Below, piece by piece: positions 8,613 through 33,816 of a stretch of DNA of 33,816 nucleotides. The notes beneath the pieces are model-generated. The model saw only the letters and a list, made by a program, of their open reading frames with translations. It was not told where the DNA came from and searched no databases. Source of the stretch: a bacterium (GTDB taxonomy: Bacteria > Planctomycetota > Planctomycetia > Gemmatales > Gemmataceae); NCBI GenBank assembly GCA_017308215.1, contig JAFKFQ010000378.1, positions 1 through 33,816 of the forward strand. The letters run 5' to 3'. How positions within the stretch are numbered: position 1 is the first letter of the stretch; each line of letters starts with the position of its first letter. The position numbers and the translations under genes are program-made.

Positions 8613-11600
8613 CTACGCTTGGATGACGTCGTCGATCGAGAACCCGCCGACCGTCGCCCCGTAGAACAGTTGACTCGCCGGCGGGCGGACCACCGGCCGG
8701 CCGCCGCCCTCCACCGCGAACTGCGGCGACGCCAGCATGTCCGTCGAGGTGGTCGGGTTGCCGCGGTTGCCGGTGAAGTCCAGCACCTGGGCCGGCAGCC
8801 CGCGCGGGGTCGACACCAGGATGTCCCGGCTCCCGGCCGGCGAAAACCCGCCGAACCCCACCCCGCCGACCCCCAACCGCGACTGAAACCGGCCCAGCAG
8901 CGGGTCCGAGTCGGCGGTGGTGTCGAACGCCAGGAAACTCGCCAGCTCCACCGGCTGCCCGCCCGGGCCGGGCAGGCGGCCGGAGAACACCCGGATGTGC
9001 GCGGAGCCGCCGTCGCCGGGGGCCGTCAGGACGTCCGCGTACCCGTCCTGGTCGTAGTCGCCGGCGTCCACGTACACCCCGCCGCGGTAGCCCGAGTCGT
9101 ACGCGAAGAAGCTGCGCACCAGCTCCGTGGTCCGGCCGTCGTACACCAGCACCCGCGGGCCGCCGCCCACCCCGGTGCCGATCACCAGGTCGGGGGTGCC
9201 GTCGCCGGTCACGTCGCCCACCGCCACCCGGGCACCGCCCCGGAACGCCGGCTCGTAGGCGAAGAACGACCCGAAGAAGCCGGGGTACTGGGCGGCGGAC
9301 AGGCCGGCCCCGGCCGGGGTGAAGGTGAACGTCCGGAGGTGCGGCCCCCCGCCGTTGTCCGCCGCGGTCATCACCTCCGCCCGCCCGTCGCCGTCGAGGT
9401 CGCCGGCCGACACGTTCACCCCGCCGAGGAAGGTCGGGTCGTACGCGAAGAACTGGGTCAGGAGCGCGCCGGCCGGCAGCGCGTCGAGCCGGACCAGGGA
9501 GCCGTCCGCCGCGGCGTCCAGCCAGCGGCCGTCGACGACGCTCACGAGCGGCGCGGTGCCGGGGCCGTTCGCCAGGATCAGGTCCGCCACGCCGTCCCCG
9601 TTCACGTCGGCGAACGCCAGGCGCGGCGGGGCGAGCGGCGTGCCCGGGCTGACCCGGGCCGGGGACACGACGAACGGGTTCTGCGCCAGCCCCGCCCCGT
9701 CCACCCCGCCGCCGAGCGGCACCCCGTCCTGCGTCCGCACCAGCCGCACCGCGTACTGCTGGCGGACCGCCCCGGTCGCGTCGTTCGGCTCGGCGGTCTG
9801 CACCACGAACGCCGACACCCCGAACCGCGGCAGGGTCTCGATCCCGGTGAACGTCAGCGGCCGGCGGTCGGCGAACCCGTATGACCCGTCTTGGCCGTCG
9901 AACCGGAACGCGATGACGGTAGCCCCGGTGAACCGGACCGCGAGCCGGTCGCCCTCGGTCCCGGCGGGCAGCGGGCGCGTGGGGAAGTTCCCCGCGAGCG
10001 CGATTGGGGTGACCGCACTCGGCCGGACGGTGAACAGGTCGGCCCCGTCGTTCCCACCGCCCGCCACCCCGAGGAGGGCCGCCGCCGCGGTCACCTCCGC
10101 GTCGAGCGTGACCGCTGCCCCGCGGGCGAGCCCGGGCAGGACGGTCAGGGTGCCGCCGCCGAGGTCGATGAGCGGCGTCGTGTACCGTGTGCCGGCCGGT
10201 CGCGGGTCCACGGCGGAGAAGTCGCCGCCGGTTCGGATGGTCACGTCGCCGCCGGTCGTCCGCACCCCGGCGGCCGGGTCGATGGTCAGACTGTCCCGGA
10301 CGGCCAGGGTGACGGACCCGGCCGAGATCGCGGCGCGGAATGTCCCGGCCACGGCGTTGCCCGGCCGGCTCAGGTCGAACGTGCCGGTCCCGGCGAGGGA
10401 CAGGTTCCGGGCGCCGAGCGCGCCTCCCGTCTGCGCCACGCCTCCGCCCGCGGTCTGGAACGCCACGTCGCCGCCGGCGGTCACGTCGTTGAGGAGAAGG
10501 ATGCCGCCGGTCACGACGCCGAGGTCGCCGGCGATGTCGGTCGGCCCGCCGAATGTGGTGGTGCCGCCCCCCGACTGCTGGGTGAACGACCCGGCGCGGA
10601 GCGGCCCGAACGTGGCGGACGCGGCGGACGTCACGGTCACCGCCCGCGGGGCGGCCGAGCCGCCGAGCGCCCCGCCCACTGCAATGTCGCCGCCCGCCGC
10701 GAGCACGAGCGCCTGCCCGCCGTCGACACTGCCGGCGAACCCGATCGACCCGCCGGCGCTGAACGTCGTGTCGGGGCCGAACCCCACCGGGCCGTTGAAC
10801 TGCTGGGAGCCCGCGGTGGTGACGGCGCCGCCGTTCACCTGGATGAGGGGGGCCGAGACCGTAACGGTCGACGCGGCCACCGCGGCGCCGAAGGTCGTCA
10901 CGCCACCCGCGACGGCCAGCGGCCCGGTCGTCACGGGGCCGGCGAACGTGACCGCGCCGCCCGCCCCGACGGTCACCGCCCGCCCCGCGCCGGTGACGGC
11001 CTGGCGGAATTCGACGGCGTCGCCGGGGGCGTCGAACGTCGCGTCCGCCCCGACCGTGACCGGTCCGTCCCAGGTCTGCGCGCCGGTCGTATTGACCCCG
11101 CCGCCGTTCACCGCCGCGGGGCCGGTGACGGTCAGTGACGCGAGCCGTTGGCCGGTTCCGACCAGACCGTTGAACGTCACCACCGCCGCCGCCGCTACGA
11201 GCCGGGTGGGGCCGTTCAGTGTGGACGCAAAGCTCACCCCCCCGCCGGCGGTGAGGGTCGTGTCGGCAGCGCCGAGGACGACGGCGTCGCCGTACACCTG
11301 GCCCTGGTCGGTGACGACCGACCCGCCGAGGATCCGCGTCACCCCGCTGGCGTCGGTGACCAGTTCGCCGACCGCAACTGGTCCGCCGAACGTCGTGTCA
11401 CCGGTGGTGTTCACCGTGAGTTTCCGACCGGGGCCGGACACGGAACCCGTGAACAAGACCCCTCCGCCCGCGGCCGTGAACACGGCGTCCGCGCCGAGCG
11501 CGACCGGGCCGGTGTACGACTGGAGGCTGGTCGTGCCGACGGTCCCGCCGTTCACCTGGGTGAGGGCGGCCGAGACCGTTACGGTCGACGCGGTGACAGG

Positions 11601-15470: not shown

Positions 15471-15611
15471 GATGTACGTCCTGGTGCGCCGGTGTCCGTA
15501 TACCTCCACCTTCCCAAATGAACGACGGGCGGGCAACCCGGCGGGATTGGACCGACCCGCGGGTCCGGCGGAGAACCCGACAGAACCCGGACGACCGCGC
15601 CCCACGTGTGG

Positions 15612-18308: not shown

Positions 18309-18325
18309 GGGCGCACCTCCTGTCC

Positions 18326-18339
18326 TACCCGGTCGGGTA
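18326..18339. promoter_or_regulatory. 14-bp palindrome in the leader of the TonB receptor gene
   Basis: TACCCG (18326-18331), GT, CGGGTA (18334-18339): a perfect 6-2-6 palindrome just upstream of the ribosome-binding site (18316-18321) and 17 bp from the start codon. Its place between the likely promoter and the RBS suits a repressor operator or a small mRNA hairpin. It does not resemble a Fur box. Confidence 0.4.
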
Positions 18340-18424
18340 TCCGGCTTGTTCCGAATGTATCGACACAAACGGCCCCGGAGTTAAACCCGTCAGGAATCCG
18401 CTCAAGTTCCTCGGTCGCACGGCC

Positions 18425-21181
18425 TCACTTCCGACCACGTTCGATTACCCGCTGTAGCTCGGTGTCGAACGACTCCCGGGCGAGCAGCTGCCGCATTCGC
18501 TCCGCCTCCTCGGTCAGTCCGTCCTTCTCCGCGGCGGACCGTGCCCGACTCAGGGTCTCCTGGTCGGCCGCCGTCATGTCCGATGCCATGTAGCGGGCCT
18601 CGGACGCAAGCGCCTGCCAGCGGGGGCGTTCCGCAGCCGGGACGGTGTCGGCTCGTCCGTCAAACAATTCGGAGTATGTCTTGTAGAGCTTGGGGTCGCT
18701 CGCCTTTGGGGGATTCCGGTTTCCTCCGACGCCGGCGGTTAGGACGAACTTGGCGACGTCCGGGGCGGCCGTTTCCGATAGGGCGAGCAGGTACGCCTTC
18801 TGCCAGAGCGGGAACGCCCGAGATGCGTGGTCGGCATCGACCTTCACCTCGACCCCGGCCGGGGTCGGGAGTGGGGCTCCTTCCATCGTCGCCAGGTAGG
18901 CGCACCACTTGGCCGCGCTCTTGTGATCGGGTTTGAGGTCCAGCGCCGACCCGTAGAGGGCAACCGCTTCCTTCCGGTCCTGCCGCCGTTTGTCGAGTCG
19001 GGGCTCAAGCTTGTTCTTGACGGTCGAGGTATAGAAGAGGGGCTCGGCCAAGTCGGCGAAGCGCTGTGCCAGCTCTTCAGCAGCGAAGGACTGGCGGTGG
19101 CGGGTCACCGCCCTGGCGGTATCGACCGGGGACATGCCGATGGCCTTGTCGACCAGCGTGTCGGCGTCCGCTTTCCGCCGCGGCGCGGGGTATTCGGGCA
19201 CATCAACCCAGAACGGGGCGGACATCAGATCGGCGGAGGCGCCGACCAGCAGGTCCGCCGCACGGGCTTTCTCTTGTGTGCCGGAACCGCCGGCCGGCGG
19301 GTCGGCCACCAGTGGCGCGTAGAGGAACCGGTGTCGGAGCTGGCCGCGTGCCCGCTGCTGTTCGGCGGCAGCGCGTGCGGCCTCGTATCGGTCAACGAGG
19401 TTCGCCCGGTTTGGAACCTTGGTGAGCACGGCATCGGCGAGACTGACAAGAGCCTTTCCGTCCTCGATTCGCCCCCGAACGGGGGCGCTCTCAGGAATAC
19501 CGACCGACTTGGCAAGACGGTCCGCGGCTTCGGACCATTCCCGCGGTTCCTTCAGTTCCTGCGCGGTGTATGCCCCCGACGCGGTCAGGTTCGTGCGCCA
19601 TTGCTGGGTCTTTGCGGTGTCCTCCAAGCCCTGCGTCACCAGATCGCGTATTTTGTCTTGCTCGGCTTGTGTGGTGCTGGGTATCAGTTCGTTGGCAATT
19701 GTCGCGGCGGCATCGATATCGGCGGCGGTTTTCAGATCATGATTCGCGAGACGGATGGTCAGCGGGGGAGGAGGGGGGGGCAAATCCACTTTAGGCGAGG
19801 GCTTTTCGGAGCCCGGCCCTCGGCCCTTGCCGGTGGCCTTAGAGCCGACCTGATCTGCTTTAGGGTTGCTTTGTTTATCGCTGCCTTGCGATGCCGAGCT
19901 GTACTTCTGGGGTGGATCCGTACTCGGTGGCGTACTGGGGGAGCTCGGATCGGGGCGTGTCGCCACGAACCCGGCCACCGCGACGGCTACGGCGACGAGT
20001 CCGGCGGCGAGCGGGGCGACCCAGCGCCGCCGCTTCGGGGAACCCATGGGCATCAGAGCCGGGTCCGTGGCCCACGGGGTCGTCGTGGCGGGCTCCGCGC
20101 GCGGGGGGGGAGGGGTCTCGCGCACGACTTCCGGGAACGGTACCGTCTCCGAGGGGCCGACCGGCGTTCGCCAGACCTCCGTGCTCGCCCACGGTGGGGG
20201 CGGGGCGACCTCCGGCGGTCGCGGGGCGGGCGCCGGGGTCGGTGTGGGCAGCCGACGCGCCGCCGGCTGCGGGATCGCCGCCGACCGGGTCAATGTGACC
20301 CCACACGCCACCTTCAACTCCTCCACCATGTCCTGCACCGTCGGGTAGCGGAGCTCCGGGCGCAGACTCGTCGCCCGGGCGATCACCGCTCGCTCGTCCG
20401 GGGCCAGCGCGGAGAGATCGAGGGCGCCGGTCATGTTCGCCACCAGCGCCCGCGCCTCGTCGAACGGTAGCCGGCCGGTTCGGAGCTCGAAGTACGTGAC
20501 AGCCAGCGAGTACTGGTCGGTCTGCGGGCAGGGGTCGTTGCCGATGAGTTCCGGGGCGGCGTAGGCCGGGGTGCCGGCCCCAAGGGTCTTCTTCGCGTCC
20601 GACCCGATCGCCCGGGCGACCCCGTAGTCGCACACCTGCACGTCCCCGCCGACCACCAGCAGGTTCGCCGGCTTGATGTCGCAGTGAATGATCGGGCTGT
20701 TCGCGGGCGGGTGCGACGGCTCGTTCAGATAGTCGATCCCGCGGGCAGCTCCGTCCATGTACCGGAGCAGCAGTCGGGGTGGAATGCCGCCGGATGTGCG
20801 GGTATTCTCGGCCTGTTGCGCCAGGTTCAGGTCGCCCAGCCCCATGGCGATCACCAACTCCTTCGGCCCGCCCAACTTGATCCGGGTCGTCAGGCTCTCG
20901 TCCGGGTCGCCGGACGGGGCGTCGGTCATCACGTTCCCGGCCGGGTCGCGGAGCCAGATCGCCTGGATCGGGCAAAGGTTCGGGTGCCGCAGCCGTTTGA
21001 CTAGACCGACCGCCCGGAATTCCTTGACCCCCTGCCGACTGTCCAGGGCGATGAACTTGAGCGCCGCCTCGGTGCCGCCCGGGCCGGTGGCCTTCCACAC
21101 CTCCCCGTAGCTCCCGCGGCCGAGGAACGTGACCAAACGATACCCCGGGACGGGTTCGTCGCCGTCGCGGTAACCGGACAT
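18425..21181 (-). CDS. Transmembrane Ser/Thr protein kinase (PknB/PpkA type)
   Basis: A 918-residue membrane kinase. The ATG at 21181 follows GGAGAGG by four bases and gives MSGYRDGDEPVPGYRLV; longer in-frame extensions would overlap the divergent tssK. The kinase domain (about 14-300) has the Gly loop GRGSYGEVWKA, ATP-binding Lys42, a catalytic loop HCDIKPANLL (Asp168, Cys in place of the usual Arg), Mg-binding DYG (Asp185, Tyr for Phe), and the activation segment GTPAYAAPE with TDQYSL behind it. A Pro-rich stretch, then one transmembrane helix (VAPLAAGLVAVAVAVAGFVA, about 383-402), lead into an external region of about 500 residues, mostly helical with no domain I recognise. Divergent orientation from tssK suggests it controls the secretion-like module, as PpkA-type kinases do in known type VI systems; this is inferred from position. 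Confidence 0.9.
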   Translation of the reverse strand: MSGYRDGDEPVPGYRLVTFLGRGSYGEVWKATGPGGTEAALKFIALDSRQGVKEFRAVGLVKRLRHPNLCPIQAIWLRDPAGNVMTDAPSGDPDESLTTRIKLGGPKELVIAMGLGDLNLAQQAENTRTSGGIPPRLLLRYMDGAARGIDYLNEPSHPPANSPIIHCDIKPANLLVVGGDVQVCDYGVARAIGSDAKKTLGAGTPAYAAPELIGNDPCPQTDQYSLAVTYFELRTGRLPFDEARALVANMTGALDLSALAPDERAVIARATSLRPELRYPTVQDMVEELKVACGVTLTRSAAIPQPAARRLPTPTPAPAPRPPEVAPPPPWASTEVWRTPVGPSETVPFPEVVRETPPPPRAEPATTTPWATDPALMPMGSPKRRRWVAPLAAGLVAVAVAVAGFVATRPDPSSPSTPPSTDPPQKYSSASQGSDKQSNPKADQVGSKATGKGRGPGSEKPSPKVDLPPPPPPLTIRLANHDLKTAADIDAAATIANELIPSTTQAEQDKIRDLVTQGLEDTAKTQQWRTNLTASGAYTAQELKEPREWSEAADRLAKSVGIPESAPVRGRIEDGKALVSLADAVLTKVPNRANLVDRYEAARAAAEQQRARGQLRHRFLYAPLVADPPAGGSGTQEKARAADLLVGASADLMSAPFWVDVPEYPAPRRKADADTLVDKAIGMSPVDTARAVTRHRQSFAAEELAQRFADLAEPLFYTSTVKNKLEPRLDKRRQDRKEAVALYGSALDLKPDHKSAAKWCAYLATMEGAPLPTPAGVEVKVDADHASRAFPLWQKAYLLALSETAAPDVAKFVLTAGVGGNRNPPKASDPKLYKTYSELFDGRADTVPAAERPRWQALASEARYMASDMTAADQETLSRARSAAEKDGLTEEAERMRQLLARESFDTELQRVIERGRK

Positions 21182-21240
21182 CACACCTCTCCGCATGTGG
21201 GCACTGCGTTCCCTAACACGGTAGTCGGTGGGGCGGGGCG

Positions 21241-21269
21241 TTGCAATCGACGGCCCGGTCCGGTAGACT
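21241..21269 (+). promoter_or_regulatory. Candidate sigma-70-like promoter for the tssK cluster
   Basis: TTGCAA (21241-21246) and TAGACT (21264-21269) are separated by exactly 17 bp, each matching four of six consensus positions, about 50 bp upstream of the tssK start and within the 136-bp divergent spacer. Such matches arise by chance in GC-rich DNA less often than in AT-rich DNA, but this remains a sequence guess. Confidence 0.35.
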
Positions 21270-21317
21270 GCCGCCCGTACCCACGAACTAGACGGTCTCG
21301 CTTTCCGGGTGGACCCG

Positions 21318-22757
21318 ATGAGCGTCCCGGCGGTCCACTGGCACGAAGGGATGTTCCTCCGGCCGCACCACTTCCAGGCGGTCGAGCGGTACCTCGCCGA
21401 CCAACTCCGCTGCGCCGGCCGGTTCGACGTGCACCACAACTGGGGGCTGCGGGCGATCGACCTCGACCCGGACGCCCTGCGGAACTACCGGTTCGAGGTC
21501 CACCGGCTCGAGGCCCGGCTGCGGGACGGCACCACGGTCGTGTCCGCGCGCGACCAGAACCCGCTGCCGGGGCTCGACCTGCGGGCCGCGATGGCCGACC
21601 TCCAGCCGGGCGGGACGGTGGACGTCTTCGTCGGGGTGCCGGTCCTGCAACTCGGCCGGCCGAACGCCGGCGCTGACGCCCCGGACACCCGCTACCACGT
21701 CGACACCCCGCGGGAGCCGGTGCCGGACGAGAACACGGGCCAGAACCCCCGGCTGGTCCAGTTCCGCCGGCTGAACCTCCGGCTGTTCGCCGGCCCGCAG
21801 GACGCGAGCGGGTACGAGACGGTCCCGGTGGCCCGGCTGGAGCGGTCGGCCCAGGCGGCCGCCCCGCCACAGCTCCACCCGTGGTACGTCCCGCCGGTGC
21901 TCGCCTGCGACGCCTGGCCGGCTCTCGGCGACGGGGTGGTGGGGCAGGTGTACAACCGCCTCGGGACGATGGTGAAGCAGATCGCCCAGCGCGCCCGGGA
22001 GCAGCGGATCACGTTCGACAGCAACGCCCCGGAGGACCGCAAGCTGTTCGAACGCCTGCGGGCGCTCAACGAGGGGTACGCCACCCTCGGAGTCGTCGCC
22101 CGGGCGGCCGGCGTCCACCCGTTCGACGCCTACCTGGAACTGTGCCGGCTGGCCGGCCGGCTGGCCGTGTTCGGCAAGGCCATGTCCGTCCCCGACGAGG
22201 ACATGCCGCCCTACGACCACGACGACCTCGGGCGCTGCTTCTTTGCGGTGAAACGGCTGATCGACGAGCTCCTGACCCACGACTTCGATCAGGGGTACGA
22301 CACCCGCCCGTTCGTCGGCGCCGGGCTGCGGCTGCGGGTCGGGATCGAGCCCGCCTGGCTGGCCCCGGCGGCGCAGGTGCTGGTCGGCGTCGAGTCGCCG
22401 CTCGCCCCGGCCGAGACGGCCCGCCTCCTGACCGGCCGGCTGAACATGAAGATCGGGTCGTTCGAGCGGGTGGACGAGATCTTCCGCACGGGTCAGCGGG
22501 GGCTGGACTTCGTCCCCGTGCCGAACCCGCCGCGGGTGCTCCCGGCGTCGCCGCGGCTGACGTACTTCCAGGTCAGCCGGGACGCGTCCCGGGACGAGTG
22601 GGAGCACGTGGCCCGGACGTACACCCTGGCCGTGCGGCTGAACGAACGGCTGATCGCCGGTACCCTGGACGGGAAGCCAGAGGTGACCATCCAGGCCGAC
22701 GGCCGGACGACGCCCCTGCGGTTCACCTTGTACGTGGTCCCGCCGTCCGCGGGCTGA
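21318..22757 (+). CDS. tssK: Type VI secretion system baseplate subunit TssK
   Basis: A 479-residue TssK-family protein. In type VI systems TssK trimers link the baseplate wedge (TssF/TssG) to the inner-membrane TssL-TssM complex. The N-terminal signature VHWHEGMFLRPHHFQ (6-20) is diagnostic, followed by the usual two-shoulder region (VFVGVPVLQL) and a helical middle. The C-terminal region holds the LDFVPVPNPPRVLPA-type segment and the closing RFTLYVVPP strand. Length is slightly above the usual 440-450. The ATG at 21318 was preferred over a GTG at 21309 because a GGTGGA precedes it. tssL follows after 4 bp and the TssM-like gene after that, giving the usual K-L-M order. Confidence 0.9.
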   Translation: MSVPAVHWHEGMFLRPHHFQAVERYLADQLRCAGRFDVHHNWGLRAIDLDPDALRNYRFEVHRLEARLRDGTTVVSARDQNPLPGLDLRAAMADLQPGGTVDVFVGVPVLQLGRPNAGADAPDTRYHVDTPREPVPDENTGQNPRLVQFRRLNLRLFAGPQDASGYETVPVARLERSAQAAAPPQLHPWYVPPVLACDAWPALGDGVVGQVYNRLGTMVKQIAQRAREQRITFDSNAPEDRKLFERLRALNEGYATLGVVARAAGVHPFDAYLELCRLAGRLAVFGKAMSVPDEDMPPYDHDDLGRCFFAVKRLIDELLTHDFDQGYDTRPFVGAGLRLRVGIEPAWLAPAAQVLVGVESPLAPAETARLLTGRLNMKIGSFERVDEIFRTGQRGLDFVPVPNPPRVLPASPRLTYFQVSRDASRDEWEHVARTYTLAVRLNERLIAGTLDGKPEVTIQADGRTTPLRFTLYVVPPSAG

Positions 22758-22761
22758 CCGA

Positions 22762-23454
22762 ATGAACGACGCGCCCGTTGTCCGCCGGATGCACGACGTG
22801 CTCGGCGCCGGCCTCGACCTGAAGGAGCGGCTCGACCGGGGCGAGGCGCCGGCGTTCGAGGCCGAGAGCGCGCGGCTGCGGGCGCTGGTGATCGGCGACG
22901 GGGTGCTGGCCCAGGATCCCGCGTACAACGGCGAGCTGGTCGGTCTCGGGTTCCAGCCGACGGCTACCGACCTCGACGGCGGCGACCGGTTCCTCGGCGC
23001 CCGCTACGCTCTAGCCTGCTGGCTGGACGAGGTGTTCGTGCTGGCCGCCCCGCCGTGGTGGGCCGAGCGGTGGGAGGCGAACACGCTCGAGACCGCGCTC
23101 TACGGCGGCACCCAGCAGCGGGCGTGGCGGTTCTGGGACCAGGCCCGGCGCGCGGAGGGGCCACGCGGCACCCCGGTGGCGCTGGAGGCGTACCTGTGGT
23201 GCGTCATGCTCGGGTTCCGCGGCAGCCCCCCGGAGGACCTCCACCCGGCCGCGTGGGTGGACGCCGTCCGCAAGCGGGTGCTTGCGGTCCGCAGTACCGA
23301 CTTCCAGACCCCGCCGGAGCGGGACCTGCCGACCGCCGTCCCCCCGCTTCGCGGCCGAGAGCGGTTCGCCCGGATGCTCCGCGTCGCGACCGCCGCCGCC
23401 GCCGCCGCCGCGTTCGCCGCCGGCCTGGCCGCTACCGCCGGATTGTCACGCTGA
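22762..23454 (+). CDS. tssL: Type VI secretion protein TssL/DotU family, short form
   Basis: A 230-residue DotU/TssL protein, an inner-membrane partner of TssK and TssM. The cytoplasmic hook domain is recognised by its helices and the family block ARYALACWLDEVFV followed by WWAERWEANTLETALYGGTQ (the WG..W.....L...F.....GGE-like part of the family). The C-terminus is a single transmembrane helix (about 205-228, AAAAAAAFAAGLAATAG). It has no periplasmic OmpA/peptidoglycan-binding extension, which is normal for the short form of the family. Start ATG 22762 lies 4 bp after the tssK stop, and the TssM-like gene starts 7 bp after its own stop, so the three are one transcription unit. Confidence 0.85.
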   Translation: MNDAPVVRRMHDVLGAGLDLKERLDRGEAPAFEAESARLRALVIGDGVLAQDPAYNGELVGLGFQPTATDLDGGDRFLGARYALACWLDEVFVLAAPPWWAERWEANTLETALYGGTQQRAWRFWDQARRAEGPRGTPVALEAYLWCVMLGFRGSPPEDLHPAAWVDAVRKRVLAVRSTDFQTPPERDLPTAVPPLRGRERFARMLRVATAAAAAAAFAAGLAATAGLSR

Positions 23455-23461
23455 GCTCCCC

Positions 23462-25114
23462 ATGCAAACCCTGCTGGCCTTCTTCGGCTCGATCGCCAAC
23501 GGCCTGCGGGCGCTGGTCGGACTGGTCCTGCCGGTGTTCGCCGAGGCGGCCGACTTCCGCGGTTGGCCCGGCTGGCTGAAGGTGGTCGTCGGCCTGCTCC
23601 TGGCCGCCGGGCTGGCGGCACTGGCCTACGCGGCACAGGCCCGCGGGTGGGTGCAGGTGAACCCCCTACTCGGGGACGTGGTTCGGCCGGCCCGTCCGTT
23701 CTTCCTGGCGGCGCTGGTGCTGCTCGTCGTCGCCCTCGCCTGGCTGCTGTACACCCTGTGGCTGCTCGCGAGCCGGGACGAGGCGGCGGCCGAGTTCCCC
23801 GACATCGAGGCCGCATGGGCAGAGGCGACCCGGCGGCTGTCGTCGGCCGGGCTGGGGCCGGCCGACTCGCCCCTCTATCTGGTACTCGGCCGGCCGGCCG
23901 CCGGCACCGACGCCCTGTTCCTGGCCGCCGGGGTAACGGGGGTCATCCGCGCGCCCTCGGGTGGCGAGCCGCCGGTGCGAGTGTACGCCTGGAACGAGGC
24001 CATCTACGTGACCTGCGCGAGGGCGTCCGCGTGGGGCATGTTCTGCCAGCGGCTGACCGGCGAGGACGAGAACGCGTGGGCGCAGGGGGGCGACCCGGAC
24101 CCGTCCGTCCGCGAGACGCTCGGCCCAGGTCAGGTGTTCGACGAACTCGGCGCGGACCAGCGGGGCGAAATGCAGGCGCTGATGCAGGCCGCCCGCGTCC
24201 GAGAACTGGAGCCGCACGAACAGGACCGACTACGGGAACTGGCGGAGCGGGCGGCGGCCACCCCGCCGCCGCGGAAGAAGCTGCGGCTGCCGGAGAACGC
24301 CCAGGCGGAGGCGGTGCGGCGGCTGCGCTACCTGTGCCGGCTGATCCGCCGCGACCGCCGGCCGTGGTGCCCGGTCAACGGGCTGGTGGTGCTGGTGCCG
24401 TGGGCGGCGGCCGAGACCGACGACACGGCCCGCGCCGGCAGCGGGGTGCTCCAGCGCGACTTGAACGCCGCCCGCACCGCTCTCCAGCTTCGCTACCCGA
24501 CCTACGCGGTGGTGTGTGACCTGGAGACGGCCCGCGGGTTCGCCGAATTCCGCAGTGGGTTCCCGGCCGACGTGCTGCGGCAGCGAATCGGCCAGCGGTT
24601 GCCGCTCGGCCCGGACGTGGACGCGCCCGCCGTCCCGCGGGTGGTGGCCGACGCGGTCCAGTGGGTGGGCTCGGCGGTGCTGCCGGCGTGGATCCACCGC
24701 TTCCTCCAGCTCGGCCCGACCGACCCGCGGCCGACGCCGACCGGCGAGTCGCTGCACAACCGGAACCTGTACCTGCTGATGCGGGCGGTGTACGACCGGG
24801 CCCCGCGACTCGCGCTGCTCCTGTCGCGGGGCCTGCCGCCGGTCCACGGGCCGGCCGGCGACCCTGCCGCGGGGCTGCCGCTGTTCGCCGGCTGCTACCT
24901 GGCGGGCACCGGCCGGACGCCCGACGGCCAGGCGTTCGTGCCCGGCGTCCTCCAGCGCGTCTCGGATGGGCAGAACCTGGTGGCGTGGGCGCCGGAAGCG
25001 CTCGCCGAGGACGCCCGCCTGAATCGGCTGACCGCGCTGGGATACGCCGGGGCGGTACTGCTGGCTGTGATTGCGGTCGCCGCGCTGGCGGGGTGGGCCG
25101 GAATCCTGGGGTAA
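23462..25114 (+). CDS. tssM: TssM/IcmF-like inner membrane protein, half length with a degenerate GTPase domain
   Basis: A 550-residue protein resembling only the N-terminal (cytoplasmic) half of TssM/IcmF, which is normally about 1,100-1,200 residues. Two transmembrane helices (about 39-58 and 79-102) are followed by an IcmF-like domain. The nucleotide-binding loop aligns as YLVLGRPAAGTDALF (139-153), lacking the Walker-A Lys. The expected DTAGR switch segment reads TCARA, and the TKxD-like segment reads PTYAVVCDLETARGFAEF. PVNGLVVLVPWA matches the conserved strand before the helical part. A third helix (about 527-549) ends the protein, so the large periplasmic domain that meets TssJ in classical systems is missing. 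ATG 23462 is 7 bp after tssL. It probably acts as a scaffold, not a GTPase, which is inference. Confidence 0.75.
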   Translation: MQTLLAFFGSIANGLRALVGLVLPVFAEAADFRGWPGWLKVVVGLLLAAGLAALAYAAQARGWVQVNPLLGDVVRPARPFFLAALVLLVVALAWLLYTLWLLASRDEAAAEFPDIEAAWAEATRRLSSAGLGPADSPLYLVLGRPAAGTDALFLAAGVTGVIRAPSGGEPPVRVYAWNEAIYVTCARASAWGMFCQRLTGEDENAWAQGGDPDPSVRETLGPGQVFDELGADQRGEMQALMQAARVRELEPHEQDRLRELAERAAATPPPRKKLRLPENAQAEAVRRLRYLCRLIRRDRRPWCPVNGLVVLVPWAAAETDDTARAGSGVLQRDLNAARTALQLRYPTYAVVCDLETARGFAEFRSGFPADVLRQRIGQRLPLGPDVDAPAVPRVVADAVQWVGSAVLPAWIHRFLQLGPTDPRPTPTGESLHNRNLYLLMRAVYDRAPRLALLLSRGLPPVHGPAGDPAAGLPLFAGCYLAGTGRTPDGQAFVPGVLQRVSDGQNLVAWAPEALAEDARLNRLTALGYAGAVLLAVIAVAALAGWAGILG

Positions 25115-25154
25115 GCGGCGCGGGCGAGGTTCGCGCGGAGTTGCGGCGGGTGCC

Positions 25155-27080
25155 TCACCGCTTCAGCGACAGCGTGACCTCGGCGGCCTTGTCGCCGGCC
25201 ACCACCGTCACCCTCTGCTCGGCCTTCGAGTAGTCCGTCGGTTTCGAGCTGCTCACCACATAGTTGCCGGGCTTAATTCCGGTCATCAGGAACGCCCCTG
25301 CCGCGTTCGTCTTCGACGCCGCCACCGGCTTCGCGTCGGCCTTCGCGTCGGCCTCCTTGAGCAGTACGTCGAGCCCCGGCTGCGGCCGCTCCGGGGTACT
25401 CCCCTGGACCACCCGGCCCTTCACGCTCCCGGTCGTCGGCGGGTCCACGAGGACCACCTCGGCCACCACCTCCTCGGTCAGCCCGACCCGGTTGGTGAAC
25501 CGCGCCCCGAGGAGCACCGGCCCCGTCTGGTCCGGCATCAGTAGTGTCGCCGAGTACGCCGCCGGGCCGAGCTCGTCCGCCGCGGGGGGTGGTGCGTCGC
25601 CGGGTCGGGCCGCCGGCAGCAGCCCGCGCACGCCCAGCGCCGCCTTCCCGGGCGGTAGCGGCTTCCCGTCCGGCGGCGGTTCGCCGGCGTAGAACACCGC
25701 CTTCGTTACCCCGGACTCCGGGTCGAGCGCCTCGGCCGTGACCGCCAGCGCCTTCCCGCGCGGGGCGGTCGGCGGCAACCGGCGGAAGCGCAGGCCGGTC
25801 GGCCCGGTGGCGTCGAGCGTGACCCGCGCCTCGGCCGCGCTCGACCCGACGCCGAGCGTGAACGTGCGGGTGCCGTACACGCCGGTCGTTTCCACCGCGG
25901 CCACCCAGTCGCGCACCTCGGACGCGACGAGCAGTTCGCCCGCCTCTCCGACCCGGGCCGCGAGCCGCACGTCCCGCGGGGCGCGTAAGGCGGCCGTGAC
26001 CCGCTCCGGGTCGCCGACCGGGGTCCGGTAGAACACCAGGTTGGGTTCCCCGACGGGTTCCTGCCCCGCAACCTCGATGCGCACCGGCAGTTGTTTCCCG
26101 GGGACCGCGTACCGGGCGACGCCGATGCCCAGGAAGCCGCGGTCGGTCACCGGGGCCAGGACGTTTCCGACGCCCCGAAAGTCGGCCTCGAACCAGAACG
26201 CCCGCTCGAACCCGTCGGCCGCGATGAAGAAGCGGTCTGGCGTACCGGTCGCCGGTCCCAGCCGTAGCCCCTCGGCCCGCGTCACAGCCCGTTTTCCGGT
26301 TGCCTCTAGCACCGCCTCGAAGGTTCCGGCCTTGAGCGAGTCCGGGTCGAGCCCCGGGGCGTGGTCGGCGCGGAGGTCGAGGCGCACGCGGCACGGCGGG
26401 CCGCGGAACACGGCCGCGCCGACGGGGGTGTCGGTCGCCGGCACGAGCGGGGAGACACTGACGTCGAGCGCGAACCCGCCGGCCGCGCCGGTGGCCCCAC
26501 GGACCTCCGCGGCGGCCGTGAGGTACTCACGCGGGTGAGCGACGCGGACGACGCGGGCGGCCGGCGCTCGCGGGTTGCGGAACGGCACTGCCGCCTCGCC
26601 CGGCCGGGCCGGCGCACCGTCGAACAACAGCACGTAGAGCCGGCCGCCGAGTGCCGCCGCTGGTGGGGGTGGCGGCGGCGCGGGGGCGTCTTTCTTATCC
26701 GCCGCGGGGGGCGGCGGGGGAGCAACGGCCTTCTTGAACGTCAACCTGACCGGAGTCGTCGTCCCTTTCTTGACGCGGGCGGCCGTCCCCTCGGCGACCA
26801 CGTCGGCACCGGCCTCGTCGGCTGCGAGCACGAGCCGGAGGTTCGTCCAGTCCTGGTCGCCGGGGTTACGGACGTAGGCGTAGAACGGGGCCGTCTGGTT
26901 CGGCCGCACGACGAGGTTGCCGACCGGGGCAGTCGGGTCGCGGTCCCCGGGCTCGTCCGGGCGTGTGCTGAGGAACGGCCACGGGTCGGCGTCGGCCGGT
27001 TCGCGGCCCGGGGTGCGGGCAGTCATGATGAGGATGGCCACGAGCCCGGCGGTGACGGCGGCGAGGCGGGCGGCGGTCAT
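25155..27080 (-). CDS. Secreted or membrane-anchored Pro-rich protein with carboxypeptidase-regulatory-like C-terminal domain
   Basis: A 641-residue protein whose ATG at 27080 overlaps the upstream stop codon (ATGA). An N-terminal hydrophobic segment (AARLAAVTAGLVAILIMTA) acts as signal peptide or anchor. A beta-rich domain starting near FLSTRPDEPGD contains PNQTAPFYAYVRNPGDQDW, a CARDB-like strand pattern that I cannot fix to one family. A run of prolines (about 115-140) follows, then several Ig-like or beta-sandwich stretches. The C-terminal about 90 residues (GSVKGRVVQGSTPERPQPGL, then AGAFLMTGIKPGNYVVSSSK) match the carboxypeptidase-regulatory-like/CnaB-type fold. No catalytic residues were identified. 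It is the last gene of the minus-strand operon and ends 40 bp from the convergent TssM-like gene. It is likely an extracytoplasmic partner of the two upstream proteins; function unknown. Confidence 0.7.
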   Translation of the reverse strand: MTAARLAAVTAGLVAILIMTARTPGREPADADPWPFLSTRPDEPGDRDPTAPVGNLVVRPNQTAPFYAYVRNPGDQDWTNLRLVLAADEAGADVVAEGTAARVKKGTTTPVRLTFKKAVAPPPPPAADKKDAPAPPPPPPAAALGGRLYVLLFDGAPARPGEAAVPFRNPRAPAARVVRVAHPREYLTAAAEVRGATGAAGGFALDVSVSPLVPATDTPVGAAVFRGPPCRVRLDLRADHAPGLDPDSLKAGTFEAVLEATGKRAVTRAEGLRLGPATGTPDRFFIAADGFERAFWFEADFRGVGNVLAPVTDRGFLGIGVARYAVPGKQLPVRIEVAGQEPVGEPNLVFYRTPVGDPERVTAALRAPRDVRLAARVGEAGELLVASEVRDWVAAVETTGVYGTRTFTLGVGSSAAEARVTLDATGPTGLRFRRLPPTAPRGKALAVTAEALDPESGVTKAVFYAGEPPPDGKPLPPGKAALGVRGLLPAARPGDAPPPAADELGPAAYSATLLMPDQTGPVLLGARFTNRVGLTEEVVAEVVLVDPPTTGSVKGRVVQGSTPERPQPGLDVLLKEADAKADAKPVAASKTNAAGAFLMTGIKPGNYVVSSSKPTDYSKAEQRVTVVAGDKAAEVTLSLKR

Positions 27081-29659
27081 GGGGCGTCCTCCGTGACGGT
27101 CGGCCGGGCGGCGGTCTCGGCCCAGGCGCGGTAGGCGGCGTACGGCTCGGTCGTCTGGGCCGGCGCCGGCACCCCGGCCCAGACGCGGTGGCGGGCGGCC
27201 GCGGGCGGGACCGCCCGCGCGGCCGTGGCGTCGCCGAGGCGGGCGGCCGCCGGCAATTCCGTCAGCCACGCGGACCGGAGCCGGGTCTCTAAAGCCGCCC
27301 AGCTCACGTCCGAGTCCTGCGCCATCGCCCGGCGCAGCAAGGCGTCCGCCTCTTGCGCGGCCGCGGCGTCGGCCAACCCAATGAACCGCACGGATGCCTC
27401 AGCCCGCCTCAACCGCCGCGCCGCGGCCGGCTCGCCCCGCGGGACCGGCGGCGGCGGTGTGTCGTCGGTCGCATCCCGCTCGCGCACCGCCGCGTGCAGC
27501 CGGGCGGTGTCCGCGAGGAGGGCGTCCCATGCCTTCGCCCGGTCCGGTCCTCGGAGGGCCGCGCCCGCGAGCCGTACCCGCAGCGCTGCCGCGTTCGCGG
27601 GGGTGGCCTGGCGGTCAGGCGCCGTCAACCGGGTCACGGCCGTGAGGTCACAGGCAGACACGAGCCGAGCGGTCGCGGCCTTGAGCATGGCGACCGCGGG
27701 CGGGGACGCTTCCGAGCCGGTCGCGACCGGGCGGGCGGCATCGGCGACGGCCAGCCACGCGGCCGCCGGGGGGTGGTCGAACTCGGTCATCCCGGCGAAG
27801 GTTTCGCCCAACGCGAGTACCGCATCGTCGAGTGTGACCCGACCGGCCCGCGCGTGCGTGACCCGGGCGCGGGCGGTCCGGTAGGCGTCTGCGGCCCGGT
27901 CGAGCGCCGCGGTCGCCGCGGCGACGTCCGCGGCGGACGAAGCCGTCCACAACCGCCTGGCGGCGGTGCGGAGGTCTTCAGCCCGGGCATGCGAGACATC
28001 GATTTCACATGGCCCGAGGGCGATCAGCTGGCCGAGTTCGTCCTCGGCGCGGAACAGGGCGGCGATCGCGGCGGCCGGGTACACCGCCAGCCGCTGCCGG
28101 CGGAACGATCCGCCTGCCGCGATGGTGGTGAGTACGCGCGTCTCGGCGAGTGGGTTGACCGGGTCCGCGGCCGCGGCCGCCCGGCTCCACCGGGCGACCA
28201 GCTCGGCCGTCGGCGCGGCTGTTTCCACGGCCAGCGCCCAGATGAGCCCGACGGCCGCGGCCCGGTGGGACCGGGCGACCGCGGCCCACGCGGTGAGCGG
28301 CTCCGCGTCCTTCTCGGGCGGTGCCACGAGGAACGCGGCCAGCGCCTTCCCTAACTCGGGAGGCGGGTCGGGCGTGCCGCGCCTGGCGACCGGCAGACGC
28401 GCGGCAACGGCGGGGAGGTCCATCCAGTCCGGCGCCTGCGGCACCCGGGCCGCGGCGAGGTTCCACTCGGCACGGGCCGCCTGCCACACCTCCTCGGCGC
28501 GGGAGGTGGACCCGGTGAACCACCAACGCTCCTCGGCGGCGAGCAGCCCGGCGGTGAGGCGGGCGAACGCCACCGGGTCGCGGCGCGCCCGGTCGCCCGC
28601 GCGGAGTTCGTCGCGCTCGGCCCACGCCGCGCGCAGCCACGACGGGTACGCCGCCGGTGCCCGCCCAGTCAGTTCCGCGCCCGGGTGCCGGGCCAGGACG
28701 AAATCGCCACCCCGCGCCTCGGGCGCGTACAGTGTTGGCGTTTGTCGGCGGCCGTGCGTCAGTCTGGCCCAGCGGTCGACTCGCGCGGCGAGGAAGCCAG
28801 CCAACTCGCCGACCGTCACATCGCCGTCCGGCCGGGTGACGTCGGCGAACCCGTCGGCCGCCCCGCCGAGCCCCTCGGCCAGATAGAACGCGAACGCCGA
28901 GTACCCGACTGGGTCGGCCGGCAGGGCGGTCTCCCCTGCGCCGCACGCGACCAGTACCGGGAAGCCCGGCTGGTTCGCGCGGAGTAGGGCGTGCACCGCG
29001 GTGGAGACATCGTCGTCAAGGGGGCCGCCGAACGGATCAGCCGCCGGCCGGGTGATGTCGAGGAGCAGGAGCGTGTGCGGCACGTCGCGGGCGGCCGCGG
29101 CGCGGAGGACGTCCGCCAGCGGCACCCAGTTCGACGGGTCGTCTGGCGCGGCGTCGGCGGGGAGGACGTAGACGGTACGGCCGCGGATTGTCCCCAGCGC
29201 GGTGAGATGGAGGACGAGCGGTCGGCGGCGGTCCGGCCGCGGCAGCCCGGCCGTTTCCTCCCCACCCAGCCAGCCGAGCAGGCCGCGAAACCGGGCGGCG
29301 CCCTGGAAGCCGAACGCCTTCACCGTCGTGCCGTCGAACCGGTCGGCCAGGAGGTCGGGGTCGTGACCGGCCCACGGGTTCGTCGGCAAGGCCGGGTCGT
29401 CGTACTCGCCGACCGGAAGGGTGACGAACACCAGCGGAGCCGGGCGGCGGGGGAGCGCTGCCAGCCCGACGATGAGCCCTGCGAAGGAAGTCGCCAGCAG
29501 CAGGGTGACGACGAAGACGCGGGCCGGCGACGCCGCCTTGTCGTCGGTGCGCCAAGCCGCCGGGAGTGGGTGAATGTCGCGCCGCGGGGTGTCGTCTGGG
29601 GCGAACGCCGCCGGGGGTGGGGCGAGGGGGGCTTCGGCCGGTGCGGGGGTCTCGGTCAC
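27077..29659 (-). CDS. Membrane-anchored protein with a caspase-like domain lacking catalytic residues
   Basis: An 860-residue protein. The GTG at 29659 overlaps the upstream TGA (GTGA), and the longer in-frame ORF to 29950 is antisense-like noise. A Pro-rich cytoplasmic start is followed by a transmembrane helix (48-69, FVVTLLLATSFAGLIVGLAA). Residues about 77-315 resemble a caspase/metacaspase-like (peptidase C14) fold: the strand RPLVLHLTALGTIRGRTVYV, ADAAPDDPSNWVPLADVL, LLLLDITRP, VLVACGAGETAL, YSAFAFYLAEGLGG, and DGDVTVGELAGFL ending near RQTPTLY. Where active members carry His-Gly and Asp-Ala-Cys, this one has Leu-Gly and Asp-Ile-Thr, so it looks catalytically dead. The remaining about 540 residues are Ala-rich helical repeats of unknown type. 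Stop and next start overlap (ATGA), so all three minus-strand genes are coupled. Confidence 0.7.
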   Translation of the reverse strand: MTETPAPAEAPLAPPPAAFAPDDTPRRDIHPLPAAWRTDDKAASPARVFVVTLLLATSFAGLIVGLAALPRRPAPLVFVTLPVGEYDDPALPTNPWAGHDPDLLADRFDGTTVKAFGFQGAARFRGLLGWLGGEETAGLPRPDRRRPLVLHLTALGTIRGRTVYVLPADAAPDDPSNWVPLADVLRAAAARDVPHTLLLLDITRPAADPFGGPLDDDVSTAVHALLRANQPGFPVLVACGAGETALPADPVGYSAFAFYLAEGLGGAADGFADVTRPDGDVTVGELAGFLAARVDRWARLTHGRRQTPTLYAPEARGGDFVLARHPGAELTGRAPAAYPSWLRAAWAERDELRAGDRARRDPVAFARLTAGLLAAEERWWFTGSTSRAEEVWQAARAEWNLAAARVPQAPDWMDLPAVAARLPVARRGTPDPPPELGKALAAFLVAPPEKDAEPLTAWAAVARSHRAAAVGLIWALAVETAAPTAELVARWSRAAAAADPVNPLAETRVLTTIAAGGSFRRQRLAVYPAAAIAALFRAEDELGQLIALGPCEIDVSHARAEDLRTAARRLWTASSAADVAAATAALDRAADAYRTARARVTHARAGRVTLDDAVLALGETFAGMTEFDHPPAAAWLAVADAARPVATGSEASPPAVAMLKAATARLVSACDLTAVTRLTAPDRQATPANAAALRVRLAGAALRGPDRAKAWDALLADTARLHAAVRERDATDDTPPPPVPRGEPAAARRLRRAEASVRFIGLADAAAAQEADALLRRAMAQDSDVSWAALETRLRSAWLTELPAAARLGDATAARAVPPAAARHRVWAGVPAPAQTTEPYAAYRAWAETAARPTVTEDAP

Positions 29660-32600
29660 GGCCCGACCCTCGACGGCCGCGGCACGTAGTCGTCCGGCCG
29701 ACGGCCGAGTGCCGGCGGAGGTGGGATGAGTCGGACGGCCGCGCCGGGCGGGCTGGTCACCGCGGCCACCCGGAACAGTTCGAGCGAGACACCGGCCCCG
29801 CCGGCGGCCTCCGGCCACGGGCCGAACGCGGCGGTGTAGCCGTTCGCCTTGCGGTAATAGCGGTGCTCGGTCCGCACCCCCGGGGGCGGGGCGGCGAGTC
29901 GGACCTGGATCGGGTCGCCGGCCGCGTACTCGGCCCGCACCACCAGGCACGGTATCGGCCGGTCCGCGCCGGCGAACGTGACCGGTTCGACGGTGACCCG
30001 GTACGCCCGGCCCTCAGCGGTCGCGGTGTGCTCCGACCCGGGAGTGGGGACAGGGACGGTCAGCCGCCCGCTGGGGGCGGGGACGTCGTCCGCCACCCAG
30101 GCGGTGACCGCCAGTTCCTTGAAGTCCGCCTCCGTCGATCCGGGCCATCCTTCGACGGCGATGTCCCATGCTGGGGCGGGGTAGCCGTAGAGCCGCGACA
30201 CGACCGTCTTCGTCTCGCCCCAGCCGACCGGCGGGCCGACGATCGCCGCGGCCACCGGCGGGCCGACGTTCCACCACACCGCGCCGGGCAGGACGTGCCG
30301 CACCACCGGTTCGGGCTCGGCCGCCGGCCGGCGGTGGTGCGGCGGGACGTTCTCGACGAACGCCAGCGCGCCGAACCGCGCCCGCGCGTTCCGGTCCTCG
30401 ACCCCGGTCGCGGGTACCGACAGCACCCAACGGTCGCCCGAGCCGAACACCTTGCGCGCGCGGCCGAAAGCGTCGGCGTGGAGTTCTCGGCGGAGGAGGA
30501 ACGAGTCGCCGGTCCGGACGAGTGACATCGACAGGAAATCGCCCGGGGCGAGGCCGACGGCCGGGAGGCCGCGGGCGGGCGGGGGCAGGTCCGGGTAGCC
30601 GGCCACGCGGGCGGAATAGGTGCCTCCGGTGGGTGCCAGCGGGGGCGACCAGTACAGCGTGTTCGGGTCGAGGGTGCCGTGCAGGAGCGGGTCGCCGCGG
30701 GGCGGAAGGGGCGGGCGGGCGGGCCACCCGCCGACCGGGTACTCGCCGCGCGTGCCCGCGCCGCCGCCCAGCACCAACCGCGGCCACACGGCGGCGACCA
30801 GCTCGCGCCGCAGGGCGTCGGCGTCCTGCGCGTTCACCACCTCGCCGGGGACGTCGAGTGCGGGCAGGTCGGCGAACAGGTCGCGGGCCACCGTCCGGTC
30901 GGCGTCGTTGAGCGCGAACTGCACCACCACCAGCTTGACCCGGGTCGCGGCGAGGGTGTTCTTGAGCATCGCCTTCAGCGCGTCCCGTTCCTCCGGCGGC
31001 ACCCCGGGGCGGCCGCTGTCGTCGGCCCCGTCGGTCAGGACCACCAGCGTCCTCGGGCCGTCCGCCCGGGCGGGGAAGTCGTCCCGCGCCGCGGCCACCA
31101 CCGACTGAATCAGAGGGGTGGTGCCGGACGGTTCGTACCGCCGCAGCCGGGCGATCAGGTCGCGGAGCTTCGCCGTGTCGCCGCCCTGCCAGTCCACCAC
31201 CGCGGGCTCGCCCGGGGCCGGGTACACGACCGCGTCCCAGTCGGGCAGGTTCTTGGCGGAGAACAGCCGGACCCGCAGCGGCGTGCCCTTTGGTAACTCG
31301 GCTAGGGTGGCCTCCAGCGTCTCCAGCAGCCGGTTGAACTTGGACGGGCCGGCCTTCCAGACGTCCTCCGGGCCGGGGAGGCGGAACCCGTTCAGCCCCT
31401 CCTTCATGCTCCCGGAGTAGTCGAGGAGCACGACCACCGGCGGGAGCGGTTGCGTCGGGTCGGCGCGGACCGCGACGGCCGCCGCCGTCGCCCCGGGGCC
31501 GGGGTCGGTAACAACCAGTTCCGCCCGGCGGGTGACGTCCACCGCTTGCGTGGCGTCGGGGCGCTGGCCCCGGAAGTACAGACACGCCCCGGCGGTCGTC
31601 TCGGCCGGCGTCTCGTCCTCGGAGGTGGCTTCGAGCCCGACGGTGACGACCTGCTCGGGCGGCGGCCGCAGGTCGAGTAGCGTCCGCCGGGCGGTCCCCG
31701 GCGCGAGCCGGAGCGGGGCGCGGGATGCGTCCACCCGGGGCACAAGGACCGCCCGCCCCGGCGGCGTCTCGGCCGGAACGTGGAAGGTGAACCCGAGCGT
31801 CCGCCACTGCTCGCTCGTCCACCGGACGCGGTCCCCGTCGCCGGCGGGGCGGAGCTCCAGCGGCCGGGCCGGCGCCCCGGCCGGCGGCGCGCCACGCCGC
31901 AGGGCGGCGGCGTCGGCCCGGAAGAGGCGGGCGACCCGTTGGAAGTACGGCGGGCCGGCCCGCGCAGTCTCGTCGTACCAGTGATCGTTCTCGGCTCGCA
32001 CCGCGAGCGCGTCGAACAGGGCCGCCCACGCTTCCCGCCCCGCGGCCGCGGCCGGCTCCTGAGCCGGGTCGGCCCCCGGGGCGGCCGCAACCCCGAGCCG
32101 GGCGGAGCGGTCGTCCGGCGCGGCGGAGCGGCGGCGGGACTCGGCCGCGGCCGCCTCGGCGTCGCCGCCCGGGTGCCCGACCTCTGCGGCGGCGACGCGG
32201 TCCCACGCGCGCCGGGCCGCGGCACGCGGCTCCGGCCGGTCGGCCCCTGCGGGCGCGGTGCGGGCCGTGCCGGTCGGCTCGGTCAGCAGCTTGTAGGTCG
32301 CCGTCCGGGACGCCACCAGCAGCCGCTCGCGGTCGACCGGTGCGAGGAGCGGGGTGGCGAGGAGTTCCTCCTTCGACACGAGCGCGGTTTGCAGAGCCGC
32401 GTCGGTCTCCTCGCGGACCGCCCGGGCGAACGCCCCTTCCAGTTCTCGGACGCTTGCCCAGACCGCAGCCGCGCCGGCCTTCAACTCGGCCGGCGCGGCA
32501 CCGCGGGCGAGGGCCGCGTCCAGGGCATGAACCTCGCCCCACAACGCAACGAGCCGGTCGGAATCCCGGCCAGCCGTGGCGGCCCAGCGGCCGAGGTACG

Positions 32601-33816
32601 GCAGTTCCGCGAAGGCCGCGTCCCGGACCAGGAAGGCGAACCGGACATCGCCCGCCGTGCCGGCGGCCGCCGCGTACTCCTTCTCCAGTTCCCCGCCGGG
32701 GTGTTTCGGCGCGTCGGTCCCGAACAGCCAGTCCTCGGACTCGCGCCGCCGGGCGTCGGCCGTCTCGACCGTCTTCCAGATGTACGGCCGGACGCGCTCG
32801 CTCAGTGCCGCCGGGGACGGGCGGCCTGCGACCGGCGGCGCGCCCGGGGGCAACAGCCCGAGGGCGGCGCGGTCGCCCTGCGCCCGGAGAGTCAGTGCCG
32901 CCCGCCACGCGACCGGCGGTTCCTGCGGGGGGGTGATGACCTCCCGGTAGAAGCGGTTCACCAGCGCCGCGAGCTGGCGCTCGGAGGGGCGGCCGGCCGG
33001 TCCAGAAACTGGAAGCGGGGCGGTTTCGGACTTGGCCAGAACCCACAAGTCGGTGACCGGGTCGGTCGCAGCCGGGTCGCGGACCGCGTCGAAGGCGAGT
33101 GCTTGGCCGAAGCTCGCGGGGAACGTCCCGCCCTTGCCGAAGACGGGGCCGTAGGGCGCGGCGAGGTCGTCGGCCGCGGCTCGGGCGGCGTCGGCGAGCT
33201 TGCCGGCGACCGCGGGCAGTCCGGCCCGCAGCGCCGCCTCGTGCCGCAGCAGGAGGTGTTCGTACCGCCGCCACGCCCGCGGCGCGTAGGTCGCCGGGTG
33301 CGGGCCGCGCGTCAGTCGGTCGGTGCGTGCGGTCCACAGATCCCGCCACTCCTTCAGGTCGGCGGCCGACGGCGGCGGGGCGGCGTCCCACGCCGGTCGC
33401 TCGTCGTTCGGGCGCGGGCTCACCCGGATGCCATCCGCCCGGGCCTCCCCGTCCGCTCCGAGGGGCAGCAGGAACGGCGTCTGCGGGGTCGGGCGGTTGT
33501 TCCCGCTCCACGCCGCGAGCCGCTTCCGCACGTCGTCGAACAGCTCCCGGGCGGTGACGACGCCGGTCCGCCCCTCGCGCTCGTCGAGGGCCGTCACGAC
33601 CGCGTGGGCGAACGCCGTCGCCCCGAGTTCTTCCGACTCCCACCCGCGCTCCCCGGGGCCGGCCCCGCAGACCACGACCACGCGCCCGTGCCGCCTCACG
33701 GTGTCGTCTAGCCGGTGCAGTTCGGTGGCGAAGTCGTCCCACCGCGCGTCGTGGGCCGGGTCGGGGCGGAACCGGGCCGGGTCGATGAGCAGCACGACCT
33801 GTCCGGCGCCGAGTTC
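29656..33816 (-). CDS. Large VWA-domain protein with an N-terminal caspase-fold fragment, cut by right edge
   Basis: At least 1,386 residues; the frame is open to the right edge, so the N-terminus lies outside. The visible start reads ELGAGQVVLLIDPARF, then VVVVCGAGPGERGWESEELG, AFAHAVVTALDE, VVTARELFDDVRKRLAAW and PTPQTPFLL, the second half of a caspase-like (C14) fold; the Asp-Ala-Cys position is Asp-Pro-Ala, so the catalytic Cys is absent. A long Ala/Arg-rich helical region follows, then a VWA domain (about 30800-31440) with an intact MIDAS set: LDYSGSM at 31404-31424, SGTTPL and LTDGADD. The last 350 residues are beta-rich and Pro-rich, with no family I recognise. No signal peptide or membrane helix is visible in this part. 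It leads a coupled operon (GTGA overlap with the next gene). The VWA domain suggests metal-dependent binding of a protein partner. Confidence 0.75.
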   Translation of the reverse strand, partial: ELGAGQVVLLIDPARFRPDPAHDARWDDFATELHRLDDTVRRHGRVVVVCGAGPGERGWESEELGATAFAHAVVTALDEREGRTGVVTARELFDDVRKRLAAWSGNNRPTPQTPFLLPLGADGEARADGIRVSPRPNDERPAWDAAPPPSAADLKEWRDLWTARTDRLTRGPHPATYAPRAWRRYEHLLLRHEAALRAGLPAVAGKLADAARAAADDLAAPYGPVFGKGGTFPASFGQALAFDAVRDPAATDPVTDLWVLAKSETAPLPVSGPAGRPSERQLAALVNRFYREVITPPQEPPVAWRAALTLRAQGDRAALGLLPPGAPPVAGRPSPAALSERVRPYIWKTVETADARRRESEDWLFGTDAPKHPGGELEKEYAAAAGTAGDVRFAFLVRDAAFAELPYLGRWAATAGRDSDRLVALWGEVHALDAALARGAAPAELKAGAAAVWASVRELEGAFARAVREETDAALQTALVSKEELLATPLLAPVDRERLLVASRTATYKLLTEPTGTARTAPAGADRPEPRAAARRAWDRVAAAEVGHPGGDAEAAAAESRRRSAAPDDRSARLGVAAAPGADPAQEPAAAAGREAWAALFDALAVRAENDHWYDETARAGPPYFQRVARLFRADAAALRRGAPPAGAPARPLELRPAGDGDRVRWTSEQWRTLGFTFHVPAETPPGRAVLVPRVDASRAPLRLAPGTARRTLLDLRPPPEQVVTVGLEATSEDETPAETTAGACLYFRGQRPDATQAVDVTRRAELVVTDPGPGATAAAVAVRADPTQPLPPVVVLLDYSGSMKEGLNGFRLPGPEDVWKAGPSKFNRLLETLEATLAELPKGTPLRVRLFSAKNLPDWDAVVYPAPGEPAVVDWQGGDTAKLRDLIARLRRYEPSGTTPLIQSVVAAARDDFPARADGPRTLVVLTDGADDSGRPGVPPEERDALKAMLKNTLAATRVKLVVVQFALNDADRTVARDLFADLPALDVPGEVVNAQDADALRRELVAAVWPRLVLGGGAGTRGEYPVGGWPARPPLPPRGDPLLHGTLDPNTLYWSPPLAPTGGTYSARVAGYPDLPPPARGLPAVGLAPGDFLSMSLVRTGDSFLLRRELHADAFGRARKVFGSGDRWVLSVPATGVEDRNARARFGALAFVENVPPHHRRPAAEPEPVVRHVLPGAVWWNVGPPVAAAIVGPPVGWGETKTVVSRLYGYPAPAWDIAVEGWPGSTEADFKELAVTAWVADDVPAPSGRLTVPVPTPGSEHTATAEGRAYRVTVEPVTFAGADRPIPCLVVRAEYAAGDPIQVRLAAPPPGVRTEHRYYRKANGYTAAFGPWPEAAGGAGVSLELFRVAAVTSPPGAAVRLIPPPPALGRRPDDYVPRPSRVGP

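Follow-up and report, generated by a model that had tools for sequence, protein, structure and literature searches.

The data presented here support, with a probability of roughly 0.6, a planctomycete variant of the type VI secretion system (T6SS) membrane complex, in which unrelated VWA/caspase proteins would have replaced the periplasmic domain of TssM together with TssJ. With odds marginally better than even, we further propose that this complex evolved independently, keeping the TssL/TssM hub and building its envelope-spanning part from giant pseudo-caspase and VWA bitopic paralogues, with a tandem tryptophan motif of the cytoplasmic tails as the means of their recruitment. If true, this would be the second T6SS, after that of Bacteroidota, with its envelope anchor swapped for unrelated proteins and, since the homologous inner-membrane hub has been kept, the swap would be traceable within one phylum, by comparing the long TssM of other classes with the short TssM plus caspase/VWA proteins of this class. 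It would also show a bacterial envelope machine to contain inactive caspase folds, give a role to giant proteins hardly recognised by curated libraries, and offer a concrete hypothesis for T6SS firing by planctomycetes, whose envelope is debated. Our literature search found no paper on the planctomycete T6SS membrane complex; Rhodopirellula was noted merely as a T6SS carrier in 2009 (PMC2660368).

VWA and pseudo-caspase proteins are near-obligate genomic partners of the T6SS

The window, that is the whole stretch of DNA analysed, is an entire contig of 33,816 nucleotides (G000:C21) from a 9.0 Mb genome assembled in 766 contigs, 84.9% complete, whose nearest relatives are Gemmataceae. A Pfam profile search and codon-based gene calls gave the following genes at the locus:

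18425-21181, minus strand: Ser/Thr protein kinase (PF00069, 93 bits), with a transmembrane helix further along, divergent from tssK
21318-22757, plus strand: TssK, baseplate-to-membrane adaptor (PF05936, 231 bits, cut-off 23.4)
22762-23454, plus strand: TssL, DotU-like (PF09850, 51 bits), with a single C-terminal membrane helix
23462-25114, plus strand: short TssM, 550 aa (IcmF-related_N, 38 bits)
25155-27080, minus strand: carboxypeptidase-regulatory-like (CPR) protein, 641 aa (CarboxypepD_reg, 29 bits, slightly below cut-off)
27077-29659, minus strand: pseudo-caspase protein, 860 aa (caspase fold in an AF2 model)
29656-33816, minus strand: VWA protein, 1386 aa present (weak Pfam VWA match), 5' open at the contig end

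The CPR, pseudo-caspase and VWA genes form an operon convergent with TssK-TssL-TssM. The layout described in the initial annotation, with a kinase divergent from these genes and a convergent three-gene operon, is thus borne out by the Pfam matches and by the AF2 model of the pseudo-caspase protein, for which Pfam gave no match. Rfam gave no match in the window.

The link between the two operons, originally drawn from adjacency, is now supported by co-occurrence and by adjacency in many genera. Of 59 relatives, 28 have TssK, and TssC was found in 26 of these 28 but in no TssK-negative genome; VWA profile matches at E<1e-30 were present in 27/28 TssK-positive versus 1/31 TssK-negative relatives (Fisher p 1.6e-14, indicative only because the genomes are related). 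Plasmids gave no match to the VWA protein.

A comparable distribution was observed for the caspase protein in a sample of 199 genomes of the class, 88 of which have TssM: by hand tally, matches at E<=1e-20 occurred in 75/88 TssM-positive versus 15/111 TssM-negative genomes. Among the matches listed, 14 of these 15 lack a full-length frame (single-domain matches or not listed), and the remaining genome, G314, has a full-length caspase protein with TssM not detected. A full-length fused caspase-CPR protein was also found in G008 (C8, L211:5606-10243), a 95% complete genome in which no TssK, TssC or TssF was found. Conversely, 12 of 87 genomes with a short TssM, some of them incomplete, gave no caspase match at 1e-20; within this group, G190 has a divergent VWA homologue directly after TssM, G246 has similar-sized genes beside TssM, and G317, G029, G446 and G391 stand as exceptions. 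In G032, T6SS genes are present with no VWA/caspase match.

As regards gene neighbourhood, we analysed 80 named loci found via TssK, from Gemmataceae, Isosphaeraceae, Pirellulaceae and others, Rhodopirellula baltica included. A VWA/caspase gene is present in the available DNA of 31 of these loci, and in 26 of the 31 it immediately adjoins TssK/L/M. Specifically, VWA/caspase genes adjoin K-L-M in G000, G002, G028, G043, G046 (twice) and G055, an isolated TssK in G018 (twice) and G009, and TssB or TssC in G010 and G025; they follow ClpV in G058, and in G159 TssM is flanked by a caspase and a VWA gene. The conservation of the neighbourhood, which the initial annotation had proposed to check in planctomycete genomes, is found across the class, beside TssKLM or tail genes. 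The R. baltica locus carries the VWA/caspase gene in the same layout, which makes the idea testable in cultured strains.

A short TssM and no TssJ

In the TssM encoded in the window, two helices at the N-terminus precede a cytoplasmic domain without a Walker A motif, which is followed by a third helix at the extreme C-terminus; a periplasmic domain is absent. Complete TssM proteins from the named loci (n=44) measure 433-565 aa, with a median of 538, and all members of the aligned set end after helix 3, with nothing substantial further on. The Walker A and DTAG motifs were found in 0/22 short versus 4/5 long TssM proteins. Neither IcmF_C, the TssM periplasmic domain, nor TssJ (PF12790) was detected in any of the 59 relatives, the E. 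coli control being positive in both searches. All together, these data indicate that TssM is reduced to its membrane-embedded cytoplasmic part in these genomes. A pair of tandem TssM-like genes (543 and 545 aa) lies beside a VWA-caspase-CPR operon in G028:C2 (L138:19819 to L139:3180).

Frames of 1,125-1,620 aa hold the TssM match in 31 of the 32 TssM-positive genomes from other classes of the phylum and, at the one such locus checked (G158), TssM carries two IcmF domains, the middle and the helical one, while TssJ lies beside TssK. By profile comparison, the short TssM aligns solely to the cytoplasmic part of the long one (residues 95-440, 99.3%, E 3e-20). The short-TssM loci form one group in a TssK tree (support 96/93), with just two long-branched outgroup rows available. 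The sole long TssM in the class sample (1,382 aa, G362:C97:3547-4260), encoded in a genome with no caspase protein, was possibly acquired from another class. The truncation of TssM could be older than the partnership with the VWA/caspase proteins.

Compared to the TssJLM complex of the canonical type i T6SS, these loci have homologous TssK, TssL and TssM cytoplasmic domain, but differ in the features of TssM and TssJ described above and in the addition of the VWA, caspase and CPR proteins. A second term of comparison is the type iii system of Bacteroidota, where TssNQOPR took the place of TssJLM, and where a single N-terminal helix precedes the periplasmic domain in each of TssQ, TssO and TssP (PMC10781749). 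The anchor was replaced non-homologously in Bacteroidota and would have been so here, with several one-helix periplasmic partners and a cytoplasmic hub in both cases; TssL and TssM are, however, wholly lost in Bacteroidota and both kept here as the hub, where only the periplasmic half would be replaced, and the planctomycete proteins differ in fold and are much larger.

Architecture of the partner proteins and their possible roles

The pseudo-caspase protein of the window has a cytoplasmic tail with an AWR motif and one transmembrane segment at about residues 46-67. Its AF2 model (pLDDT 81.5) comprises a caspase fold at residues 71-325, matching caspase-6 over 208 residues (Z 19.6, rmsd 2.8), followed by a helical domain at 340-850, for which no known fold was found in what was a weak test, the caspase domain having filled the match lists. 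Relatives of the VWA/caspase proteins also give PF00656 matches. The fold is that of Peptidase_C14 caspases and paracaspases; unlike these, the planctomycete proteins are membrane-anchored and extracytoplasmic and their catalytic dyad is incomplete in 50/50 caspase-type and 37/42 VWA-type proteins. In the window protein the His/Cys dyad is absent, its positions being occupied by Leu155 and Thr203. Both catalytic residues are retained in five VWA-type proteins (L248:11502-16445, L286:11495-16438, L236:11623-16548, L125:9119-13786 and L090:13454-18241), which makes an active ancestor likely. The CPR protein has a signal peptide and a beta-sandwich C-terminus. It corresponds to the C-terminal half of a fused caspase-CPR protein of 1,450-1,770 aa, the form present in most relatives, which has become a separate gene in the window.

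The VWA protein contains a degenerate caspase domain, a helical region, a VWA domain and a beta-rich C-terminus. Its AF2 model is of low confidence (pLDDT 53.5) and was used solely for the VWA domain, in which the MIDAS is intact (DxSxS, TDG), D799, S801 and S803 being invariant in 18 sequences. The N-terminal 175 aa, encoded on another contig of the same genome (C716, see below), carry a transmembrane segment and the tail motifs GWRGG and EWKPG. VWA and pseudo-caspase proteins are paralogous bitopic proteins: both types are predicted to have a basic cytoplasmic tail of 20-70 aa, one membrane helix and an extracytoplasmic part of 800-1,600 aa. A W[RKQ] motif, often repeated, is present in 54/59 tails versus 24/152 control tails (maximum 34 in 2,000 shuffles). 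Homology of the caspase or VWA protein to the TssM periplasmic domain was considered and rejected (hhalign probability ~0.1%).

These features are compatible with the following working model of the membrane complex. TssK would dock the baseplate on an inner-membrane hub of TssL and short TssM. The VWA and caspase proteins would attach to this hub by their cytoplasmic tails, using the W[RKQ] motifs. Outside the membrane, the caspase-fold, helical and beta-sandwich/VWA regions would assemble a periplasmic scaffold or channel, standing in for what TssM and TssJ build elsewhere, with the MIDAS of the VWA domain as a possible binding site for a partner, for peptidoglycan or for a ligand in the outer membrane. 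Our analysis identified no outer-membrane component. The initial annotation had suggested new "envelope or regulatory partners": the partnership with TssKLM is conserved, and an envelope role is the best reading of the data.

The main alternative, which we regard as unlikely, is that the VWA/caspase proteins are not structural and constitute a dedicated sensing and activation pathway, whose extracytoplasmic domains would detect contact or envelope damage and whose W-motif tails would signal to the T6SS, in a manner functionally similar to TagQRST-PpkA and in some cases together with the adjacent kinase. The intact MIDAS is compatible with such a function, and caspase folds often serve as signalling scaffolds. 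The layout, by which the comparison with TagQRST-PpkA was made, is also similar in some loci, where a kinase and envelope proteins lie beside T6SS genes and the kinase adjoins tssK; unlike in that system, the kinase is not conserved at planctomycete loci. Kinase ORFs were found at just 12 of the 80 TssK loci, whereas VWA/caspase proteins accompany the T6SS almost universally, and a regulator would leave the class-wide loss of the TssM periplasmic domain unexplained. The same count rules out the kinase as a core partner and as the regular part of the module that it had first appeared to be; its role is regulatory at most.

In R. baltica, TssM and TssA are separated by genes for a protein of ~130 aa and for what, judging from sequence, is a sigma-70-family factor (~235 aa; L297:14080-15164). 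The pair is conserved in Pirellulaceae, being present also in L273, L277, L280, L287 and L303, and may comprise a sigma factor dedicated to the T6SS and a partner of this factor.

An even less probable role is that of adhesins or peptidoglycan-remodelling accessories, which would keep target cells in place or breach the cell wall on behalf of the machine without being part of the membrane complex. It would agree with the matches of the VWA model, itself of low confidence, to the pilus adhesins PitA/PilB and with the CNA-B/SdrD-like beta domains at the C-terminus; the single N-terminal inner-membrane anchor and the conserved tail motif point instead to a connection with the cytoplasmic machine.

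A T6SS probably divided by the assembly

The initial annotation saw no TssB/C sheath, Hcp, VgrG, TssF/G or ClpV gene. This holds for the window, where no further tss gene was found, but the contig stops inside the VWA gene and the absence is therefore a contig-end effect. TssE, TssF, TssG and ClpV of the same genome are located on two small contigs, C131 and C716, which overlap by 34 bases and on both of which TssF was found. The gene order on C716 is TssF'-TssG-ClpV, followed by the first 175 aa of the VWA protein running off the contig end, so that this contig would supply the rightward extension that the initial annotation had proposed to look for. The VWA fragment of C716 stops where that of the window starts, with ~7 codons missing as judged against G002; we infer the join between the two contigs because the gene ends are complementary. 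In G002, two contigs carry TssG-ClpV-VWA and then CASP-CPR, with a convergent TssM-TssL-TssK and the kinase beyond. The most likely order of the locus is TssE..TssF-TssG-ClpV-VWA-CASP-CPR, then the converging TssM-TssL-TssK, then the kinase, and the locus would thus most likely be an ordinary T6SS cut by the assembly.

The reading originally put forward, of a docking module that is reduced or divergent and lacks a contractile tail, which had in its favour the lack of tail genes on the window contig and the fact that TssC was not found in this ~85% complete assembly, retains practically no probability, being ruled out by C131 and C716 of the genome's own assembly and opposed by the presence of TssC in 26 of the 28 TssK-positive relatives. 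The same-genus genomes G001 and G002 both have TssC, and TssA, TssB, TssC, TssE, TssF, TssG, ClpV and Hcp are present among the relatives, with Hcp in G002; VgrG was found in G159.

Elsewhere in the window, positions 8613-18368, beside the T6SS locus, encode a protein of ~2,300 aa with FG-GAP repeats and a TonB-dependent receptor. A sensor histidine kinase at 2791-5640 has its C-terminal ATPase part in a different frame (4517-5011), whereas the NarL-type response regulator that comes next is back in the first frame; this arrangement points to a frameshift or an assembly error.
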